64,000 nt of DNA from contig NZ_FPAG01000002.1 in NCBI RefSeq assembly GCF_900116365.1, forward strand, positions 124,001-188,000. Reading direction: 5' to 3'. Positions 59,131-60,570 of this stretch are shown here, piece after piece. The stretch comes from Zhouia amylolytica (GTDB taxonomy: Bacteria > Bacteroidota > Bacteroidia > Flavobacteriales > Flavobacteriaceae). Position 1 is the stretch's first letter; every line of letters begins with the position of its first letter. A program made the position numbers and the translations under genes. Below the pieces are notes generated by a model. It worked only from the letters and a program-made list of their open reading frames with translations. It was not told the origin of the DNA and did no database searches.

Positions 59131-59162
59131 AAAAGGGTTGCTATATAGCAACCCTTTTTTTA
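59131..59162. terminator. Bidirectional terminator between carB and the DUF3307 gene
   Basis: Nearly perfect 13-bp stem (AAAAGGGTTGCTA / TAGCAACCCTTTT) with a two-base loop, A-rich before and T-rich after, at two converging 3' ends. Confidence 0.88.
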
Positions 59163-59858
59163 ATGGATGTACTGGAAACATATACCTGTTAAAATAGCAA
59201 CTCCGAAACTAAGAAGGGTTCCTATTAGAATGTACTCTGTTAGCTTTCTGTCTTTTGATTGTGTTAGATCGTTAAATCTGAATATTGATTTGGCGGCGAT
59301 TAAAAAACCAACGCCCTCCCAATGATTTGTTGCTATAAATACAAATACAAGAAGTCGTTCGAGCATGCCAATATACATACCTGCATTTTGCAAAGAGCCG
59401 TTATGCTTCATTTCAGTTTTTGGGGTATAAACAGAGATTAACATTTTAATCATTATTGAACTTGGCATGGTTAAAAAAATAATCGAGGCAATCAGGAATA
59501 AAAATTCATTACTGAGCTTAAAATTAAATTGTACTGTAGAGGTTATTAACACCATGGACATGATCACAGCTAAATGCAATAGCTGATCAATAAAAAATAA
59601 CAGACGTTTCGTTTTTTTTCTTTGGATTATTACTTTGGCTCCGTCAATAATGAAATGCGAAATACCAATTATTAAGGGAATATACCACTGTTCTGTATTC
59701 CAAAGCAAGATAAAACTTAATGCTACGTGAATAATGACGTGTAAATAAAGTTTTTTTGATCGAAGTTTCTTTTTTTCTTTGCTTTGAACCCAATTTTTGG
59801 GTTGTAGAAGGAAGTCTCCTATGAGATGGGCTATAAGTAGGCGTAGTAATAGTTCCAT
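59160..59858 (-). CDS. DUF3307 membrane protein with four spaced His/Asp pairs
   Basis: A protein of 232 residues with about six or seven membrane helices, of family DUF3307. It carries four His/Asp pairs, each three residues apart: H11xxxD15 (AHLIGDFLLQ), H40xxxH44, H68xxxD72 (SHFIIDG) and D91xxxH95 (DQLLH). Such pairs in membrane helices are seen in metal-dependent membrane hydrolases (for example the DUF457/YdjM type), so a metal centre is plausible. This is inference. It starts 3 bp after satD stops and is its stable partner in many genomes. No function is known. Confidence 0.85.
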   Translation of the reverse strand: MELLLRLLIAHLIGDFLLQPKNWVQSKEKKKLRSKKLYLHVIIHVALSFILLWNTEQWYIPLIIGISHFIIDGAKVIIQRKKTKRLLFFIDQLLHLAVIMSMVLITSTVQFNFKLSNEFLFLIASIIFLTMPSSIMIKMLISVYTPKTEMKHNGSLQNAGMYIGMLERLLVFVFIATNHWEGVGFLIAAKSIFRFNDLTQSKDRKLTEYILIGTLLSFGVAILTGICFQYIH

Positions 59859-59861
59859 TTT

Positions 59862-60485
59862 TTATTTAGGGTGTTGCAATTGATCGATTTTTTGCCGATA
59901 CATTTTATCTACATCTATTATTTCATCTAAATTGGCTCTTTTCTGACGTTCACTCACTGTGTTTTGCTTAATTCCTATAATGTTACCGATTTCTTTTTGA
60001 GATAGGAATGGGTTTTCCAGTGTTATTTTAACTATTTCAGCAGAGTTGGCAGTCCAGGTATCCATAGTGAGTAACAATAGTTTAAAATAAAGATTGAGTT
60101 CGGTATCTATTTGGTTATTTTTGGTTTTAATAGCCAAATTTACCTTATCTCTTTTAAGGCGTTCAAAACGTTCTCCAGAATATATGAATGCATCACCAGT
60201 GGCTTCAGAAATTGTTCTTGCTTCACCAGTTTTTTCTCCGACACCAATAGCTAATCGAACATCTAAACCCTTAATAGATCGAATAGCTGCCTTTAGCAGT
60301 ACTGCTATTTTAAAGGCATTGTAGAAATCCTGTATTTCAACCTGAAAACTATCTCCTCTGAATATTTCCCAATATCGATCATTTTCAGTAATCTTAGTTA
60401 GCGATTTCTTTAAGACCTCTAACCAAACTTTTGGATCTTCTGATTGCCTGGAATTGATAATATCGCCTGTGATAACACTTGTCAT
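59862..60485 (-). CDS. SatD-family protein: cyclase-like N-terminal domain plus helix-turn-helix
   Basis: A cytoplasmic protein of 207 residues of the SatD family, named for an acid-tolerance gene of Streptococcus mutans. Residues 1-120 show a class III nucleotidyl-cyclase-like layout: GDIINSR (Asp8), then FRGDSF (Asp45) at the place of the second metal Asp, then LAIGVGEKTGE and EATGDAFIYSGERFERL (97-110), as in the GDAVNxASRxE stretch. Residues 160-190 are a sigma-70 region 4-like helix-turn-helix (LSQKEIGNIIGIKQNTVSERQKR). The likely role is a nucleotide-sensing regulator, perhaps of its own operon. It forms an operon with DUF3307, and three operator-like repeats lie upstream. That it is a cyclase is my inference. 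Confidence 0.8.
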   Translation of the reverse strand: MTSVITGDIINSRQSEDPKVWLEVLKKSLTKITENDRYWEIFRGDSFQVEIQDFYNAFKIAVLLKAAIRSIKGLDVRLAIGVGEKTGEARTISEATGDAFIYSGERFERLKRDKVNLAIKTKNNQIDTELNLYFKLLLLTMDTWTANSAEIVKITLENPFLSQKEIGNIIGIKQNTVSERQKRANLDEIIDVDKMYRQKIDQLQHPK

Positions 60486-60490
60486 AACTC

Positions 60491-60570
60491 AAATATCGTT
60501 TAAAATATTGATATATGCAAATATCGTTTTATAAGGCGATTTACTTGAATATCGTGTTATATGTCGATTT
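60491..60570. repeat. Three 28-bp-spaced iterons upstream of satD
   Basis: Copies begin at 60491, 60519 and 60547. Each has AATATCG, then about ten bases, then CGAT (or TGAT in the first), so each is an imperfect dyad of ATATCG-N10-CGATAT. The spacing is exactly 28 bp twice. The third copy runs into the 3' end of the thioesterase gene. The first lies 6 bp upstream of the satD ATG. They look like a multi-site operator. Confidence 0.6.

Follow-up and report, generated by a model that had tools for sequence, protein, structure and literature searches.

The satD gene and the DUF3307 gene that follows it very likely form, judging from sequence comparison, a mobile and nearly obligate two-gene module with SatD as a nucleotide-fold autoregulator. 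The pair was studied in a 64,000-nucleotide stretch of the Zhouia amylolytica genome (the window; contig NZ_FPAG01000002.1, forward-strand positions 124,001 to 188,000) and in homologous loci. The computed observations are a palm fold with invariant aspartates in SatD, near-obligate pairing of the two genes, arrays with a 28/29-bp pitch upstream of satD, and co-variation between the SatD helix-turn-helix (HTH) and the operator sequence. The mechanism that we favor, for which we regard the case as evenly balanced, is a self-contained autoregulated module in which SatD keeps its membrane partner low or inactive and a change of ligand releases that partner. The literature searched yielded no description of function, fold, ligand, or operator for either SatD (PF16264) or DUF3307 (PF11750).

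Results

Organization and Conservation of the Gene Pair

Both window proteins score above the Pfam gathering cut-offs, which are 29 bits for PF16264 and 23 bits for PF11750 (Table 1). These matches and the open reading frames bear out the adjacency of the two genes described in the first-pass annotation, an earlier reading of the window. A thioesterase gene and rmuC lie upstream of satD, and carB lies downstream on the other strand.

Table 1. Features of the satD-DUF3307 locus (positions are those of the window)
Feature	Position	Strand	Details
satD	59862..60485	-	207 aa; palm-fold domain and HTH; PF16264 SatD, 30.9 bits
DUF3307 membrane partner gene	59160..59858	-	232 aa; PF11750, 101 bits; 3 bp downstream of satD
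SatD palm/nucleotidyl-cyclase-like domain (residues 1-120)	60126..60485	-	AlphaFold2 model, structural matches, hhalign
Asp8 codon (first metal Asp)	60462..60464	-	Invariant, 58/58 homologues
Asp45 codon (second metal Asp)	60351..60353	-	Invariant, 58/58 homologues
SatD HTH region (residues 146-204)	59874..60050	-	Helices 146-157, 163-170, 174-183, and 186-204 in AlphaFold2 model
Glu179 codon, tracks operator half-site	59949..59951	-	Co-variation across loci
Optional N-terminal membrane domain of partner, with His/Asp pairs (PF11750, residues 3-113)	59520..59852	-	Pfam match and conservation
Universal C-terminal membrane domain of partner (residues 147-232)	59163..59420	-	Outside PF11750 match
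Predicted operator copy 1, proximal to satD, ATCAATATTTTAAACGATATT	60492..60512	-	
Predicted operator copy 2, ATCGCCTTATAAAACGATATT	60520..60540	-	Exactly 28 bp from copy 1
Predicted operator copy 3, ATCGACATATAACACGATATT	60548..60568	-	Exactly 28 bp beyond copy 2; overlaps 3' end of thioesterase gene

A survey of SatD-DUF3307 neighborhoods, which the earlier reading had proposed, found near-constant pairing across 80 loci. In nearly all of them, the next gene after satD encodes DUF3307 or a shorter protein with its C-terminal half alone, and the two genes overlap by 4 bp in many; no further conserved neighbor of satD was found in these loci. A profile of the C-terminal part of the partner matched in 87 of 247 Bacteroidota genomes. 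In 61 of the 67 loci retrieved chiefly through the partner, SatD stood beside it; the remainder included two contig ends, two weak matches, and two related genomes with the partner alone.

Several loci depart from this arrangement or add to it. An intact-looking partner with no adjoining satD was seen in two related genomes (L218 and L223), a natural test of the favored mechanism. At locus L237, satD and its array are present, the partner is not detectable downstream, and a shikimate-kinase-like reading frame comes next. In 14 loci (L072, L076-L078, L080, L082-L084, and others), satD has an ABC-F ATPase gene nearby, at most a few genes away and in varying positions; this may be a true association or may reflect shared gene order among related genomes.

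Fold and Active-site Motifs of SatD

An AlphaFold2 model of SatD, built from a seven-row alignment drawn from the window, related loci, and locus L060, had a pLDDT of 89.3 and a pTM of 0.88. It comprises a beta-alpha-beta-beta-alpha-beta palm (residues 1-120), a linker helix, and the HTH. Searches with the model using Foldseek and VIA-align returned GGDEF domains, class III cyclases, GTP cyclohydrolase III, and Cas10, with palm/cyclase proteins dominating the top rows and accounting for all of the best 50 VIA-align rows. The best VIA-align matches were to GGDEF (Z 10.1), GTP cyclohydrolase III (Z 10.0), the class III cyclase OaPAC (Z 9.7), and Cmr2 (Z 9.3), where Z-scores of 9-10 are just over the level usual for models without a clear match; the Foldseek E-values were 0.002 or higher.

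Profile comparisons point the same way. A profile of diverse SatD sequences found the class III cyclases Rv1900c and Ma1120 as best or near-best matches in the PDB, with both SatD aspartates in register and E-values below significance (0.09-0.8). Aligned by hhalign with 30 Bacteroidota class III cyclase domains, the SatD profile scored 33 (E = 7.5e-5), again with both aspartates in register; control scores were at most 19.9 in 150 column shuffles and 10.5 with the reversed profile. A single-sequence SatD search of the PDB gave nothing useful, and the window SatD had no match to PF00211 (Guanylate_cyc) up to an E-value of 1. It carries RGDSF in place of GG[DE]EF and had no PF00990 match.

Residues Asp-8, Ser-12, Asp-45, Gly-97, and Trp-144 are invariant in 58 of 58 SatD homologues, and Gly-44 and Gln-48 are kept in 57. 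The motifs quoted in the first-pass annotation are all present in the window protein (G7-D8-I9, G44-D45-S46, LAIGVGEKTGE at 78-88, and EATGDAFIYSGERFERL at 94-110), and the invariance across the 58 homologues rules out chance. The family motifs follow in the order GD[IV]xxS, [LR]GD[ES]FQ, RxxIxxG, and GxAFxxxR, which agrees with the claimed class III order; the Gln after GDxF is a mark of the SatD family.

Conservation, hhalign, AlphaFold2, and VIA-align thus concur that the cyclase homology fold with two metal aspartates is present, and the model-based assignment of SatD to the nucleotidyl-cyclase/palm superfamily can be considered secure, the exact family not being fixed. Neither of the outcomes that the earlier reading had named as contrary to its proposal, an unrelated predicted fold or poor conservation of Asp-8 and Asp-45, was found, and its designation of these residues as a metal pair agrees with their invariance and their alignment with the class III aspartates. 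Its proposal of class III likeness held for the fold and the aspartate pair but not for any special closeness to that class, GGDEF, GTP cyclohydrolase III, and Cas10 being equally close.

In class III cyclases, a Lys before the second Asp (KxxGD) specifies the base, and an Asn and an Arg (VNxAxR) stabilize the transition state. In the hhalign register the Lys is absent from SatD, which has IFRGD or TITLGD instead. By motif, the SatD stretch FIYSGE/FHEARR has no Asn and no conserved Arg; the profile alignment ends before it. Because the base-specifying Lys is absent, cyclase activity of SatD appears doubtful. The palm domain probably binds a nucleotide with metal, because both metal aspartates are kept, though at least one class III hallmark is lost. 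A search for GGDEF proteins found none in the window genome and none in 59 genomes from the same class, and c-di-GMP is therefore an unlikely ligand on this genomic evidence. One class III cyclase domain is present in the window genome.

A Predicted Operator Array Upstream of satD

Immediately upstream of the window satD lies an array (60492-60568) that is absent from the first-pass annotation. Across loci, the region upstream of satD contains two to five palindromes at 28- or 29-bp spacing. In self-comparisons spanning every lag between 12 and 60, the upstream regions gave a signal at lags 28 and 29 (means of 15.9 and 8.3, versus ∼4.4 in 547 control upstream regions) and at twice those lags, and at no others. 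A fixed array score was passed by 59 of 80 satD loci versus 16 of 547 control promoters. The same lags stood out again in held-out loci collected later (15.5 and 8.4; others ∼4), of which 21 of 35 passed. Roughly one-quarter of the initial loci, and 14 of the 35 held-out loci, have no clear array.

Inverted 5-mers peak at distances of 13 and 15 and again at 41 and 43, one pitch further. The array units are palindromes of 18-20 bp at a 28-bp pitch. Statistics for a full-length 18-bp palindrome are weak, symmetry being confined to the outer arms, and the decisive test is that with inverted 5-mers. Outside Bacteroidota, arrays were found in Vibrio, Salinivibrio, Pseudoalteromonas, and Enterobacter loci, and inspection of the archaeon Natronosalvus revealed two palindromes at a 29-bp spacing where the annotated frame begins.

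In the window genome, operator matches with 0 mismatches occur at the array alone. A regulon beyond the module's own operon was considered for this genome and rejected, other matches being at the level of a reversed-pattern control. Because the 28-bp-spaced array is just upstream, the SatD HTH very likely controls the satD-DUF3307 operon, a prediction made from the DNA.

Co-variation of the HTH with the Operator Half-site

The sigma-70 region 4-like HTH that had been placed after the SatD domain was found near residues 146-190, its likeness being weak: the region gives weak HTH_24, Sigma70_r4, and sigma70-ECF matches. Residue 179 tracks the operator half-site, the state of which was assigned by a fixed rule from DNA alone. 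With Glu or Asp at this position the half-site is TATC in 14 of 14 loci; with Gln it is TATT in eight of nine and TATA in one, and a C is found in none of the nine. A clear example sets L091/L123 (SEGLKRGG, TATCTGC) against L090/L092/L093/L096 (SQGLKRAG, TATTAG). On a tree of the N-terminal domain, residue 179 and the half-site each change three times and all three independent contrasts agree, a number too small for a significance test. In the main array-less clade (L207-L216) the HTH is degenerate and scores 6-20 bits, versus 29-64 bits in the array-bearing loci shown.

The Membrane Partner

The C-terminal ∼80-85 residues of the partner are universal, with Gly-164, Glu-167, Lys-190, Arg-194, and Gly-213 invariant in 28 diverse partners. 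The four His/Asp pairs described earlier in the DUF3307 protein are present with i,i+4 spacing, but one of them is His/His (H11/D15, H40/H44, H68/D72, and D91/H95). Their conservation, proposed as a check, proved partial: they are kept in ∼31 of 39 homologues, and the domain is missing or lacks the pairs in the SatD partners of L075, L111-L117, and L139. An AlphaFold2 model of the partner was mostly helical and of low confidence (pLDDT 63). A partner profile had no match in the PDB, and Pfam gave no match to a soluble nucleotide-binding domain (beta-barrel, CARF, or SAVED).

The first-pass annotation had proposed an active class III cyclase-like enzyme with an HTH controlling a membrane metal enzyme. 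The palm fold, the metal aspartates, and the His/Asp pairs of the window partner are in keeping with this model, and control of the operon agrees with the array upstream. On sequence grounds, the metal-type domain does not appear to be the partner's conserved core, because several partners that remain paired with SatD have it in degenerate form or not at all. Together with the loss of the base-specifying Lys, this makes the model as a whole very improbable.

Mobility and Defense Context

The pair spans bacteria and archaea. It is the main cargo of ColE1-like plasmids of 3.8-4.4 kb in E. coli and Klebsiella (L066 and L067), and it also occurs on other plasmids, on five IMG/VR contigs, and on two haloarchaeal plasmids. 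SatD had no match in INPHARED phages, a single-sequence SatD search of viral contigs gave nothing useful, and blastn of the plasmid copies in complete E. coli genomes gave no match.

On a Sphingomonas insulae plasmid (L073:3159-14434), a dense defense island carries Gabija (GajA/GajB), a ThsB-like TIR, SatD-DUF3307, and then PycTM, E2, and PycC. On an Enterobacter plasmid the pair adjoins Gabija (GajA/GajB). Such placements would suit a Pycsar- or Panoptes-type anti-phage module, in which a cyclic nucleotide made by SatD acts on the membrane partner and harms the cell on infection, as would the two-gene layout of an Asp-pair palm domain and a membrane protein, which resembles Panoptes OptSE (PMC12657218). 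Yet neither window protein matched any PADLOC model, Pycsar (PycC, PycTM) included, at E-values up to 0.1, and the partner has no recognized nucleotide-sensing domain. SatD carries an HTH and predicted operators, features not reported for OptS, and it lacks the class III base-specifying Lys. In the other mobile loci, just two further weak defense matches were found among 57 neighbors, and a general enrichment of the pair in defense islands is unsupported, defense genes being rare at those loci. A defense role for the pair is possible; this particular mechanism seems decidedly unlikely.

Discussion

We propose that SatD is a one-component regulator whose N-terminal palm domain would serve as the nucleotide receptor. 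Its C-terminal HTH would bind the private array of 18-20-bp palindromes, which has a strict 28/29-bp pitch and overlaps or adjoins the satD promoter, and would thereby repress the satD-DUF3307 operon. The output would be the co-transcribed membrane partner. Its constant part, a short membrane domain, has Glu, Lys, and Arg residues that look buried, and the His/Asp domain sometimes precedes it. SatD would hold the partner, presumed harmful when unrestrained, low or inactive in the manner of an antitoxin or guard, and a change of ligand would free it.

Tolerated absence combined with intolerance of disruption is a pattern typical of antitoxins and of genes that repress a harmful neighbor. In Streptococcus pyogenes, transposon sequencing of emm1, emm28, and emm49 strains identified satD, carried by 178 of 249 genomes, as the sole accessory gene that is essential (PMC11323703). 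Because satD is accessory yet essential there, we favor the keeping of a harmful neighbor as the mechanism. This interpretation of the S. pyogenes result is ours and not that of the authors of that study, it assumes a partner gene in that species, and polar or annotation effects are possible. The partners without an adjoining SatD in L218 and L223 count against a keeper role; SatD without a partner in L237 breaks the pairing, yet fits such a role.

Autoregulation would stand equally if SatD were a stress-regulon switch that responds to a nucleotide by adjusting a beneficial, non-toxic membrane protein such as a transporter, an envelope protein, or a metal enzyme. The Bacteroidota loci are chromosomal, partly syntenic, and flanked by ordinary genes that give no general indication of a role in conflict, and most partners carry the His/Asp pairs. 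In Streptococcus mutans the sat genes are up two- to threefold in fructose, and the SatCDE-ffh cluster is placed among the stress genes (PMC12077213). An accessory yet essential satD is hard to explain on these terms unless its loss is actively harmful; the tiny plasmids with almost no other cargo and the optional nature of the His/Asp domain also speak against it. We consider such a switch unlikely.

A broader form of the favored mechanism, on balance doubtful, would make SatD one of a class of one-component regulators that crosses the domains of life. In this class a palm of cyclase fold would have become a nucleotide receptor that loads, perhaps as a helical oligomer, onto arrays of 28-bp pitch (three copies spanning 84 bp, or eight helical turns) and stands guard over a toxic membrane effector. 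Depletion or mimicry of the nucleotide by phage or stress would then free the effector.

Two families of domains of unknown function gain a concrete mechanism open to test. SatD is placed in the nucleotidyl-cyclase/palm superfamily with a private operator array of unusually strict pitch that extends from Bacteroidota to gammaproteobacteria, and the keeper role offers an explanation for the essential-yet-accessory satD of S. pyogenes. The analysis also suggests that "secretion and acid tolerance" is a misleading name.

Comparison with Known Systems

PF11750 covers just the optional half of the SatD partner. With the class III cyclases Rv1900c and Ma1120, SatD shares the palm fold, two metal aspartates in register, and the RxxIGxG strand; unlike them, it has no Lys before the second Asp and has a C-terminal HTH with predicted operators of its own. 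The GGDEF diguanylate cyclases and GTP cyclohydrolase III are its best structural matches (Z about 10), and the GD[ES]FQ hairpin resembles that of GGDEF, but there is no GGDEF signature in the window SatD. Panoptes OptSE (mCpol plus a 2TM effector) is likewise a two-gene operon encoding an Asp-pair palm protein and then a membrane protein. However, OptE has a soluble nucleotide-binding domain and no HTH is reported for OptS, whereas SatD has an HTH and an array and no such domain was recognized in its partner. The likeness to type II toxin-antitoxin systems lies in a compact mobile operon whose first gene encodes a predicted DNA-binding autoregulator, is essential where present, and is preceded by a predicted autoregulatory operator array of 28/29-bp pitch. 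In contrast to those systems, a nucleotide-fold protein would act as the keeper, and the second gene encodes a membrane protein of putative toxicity. If the keeper role is true, the pair would represent a new guard or toxin-antitoxin type with a cyclase-fold receptor as its base.
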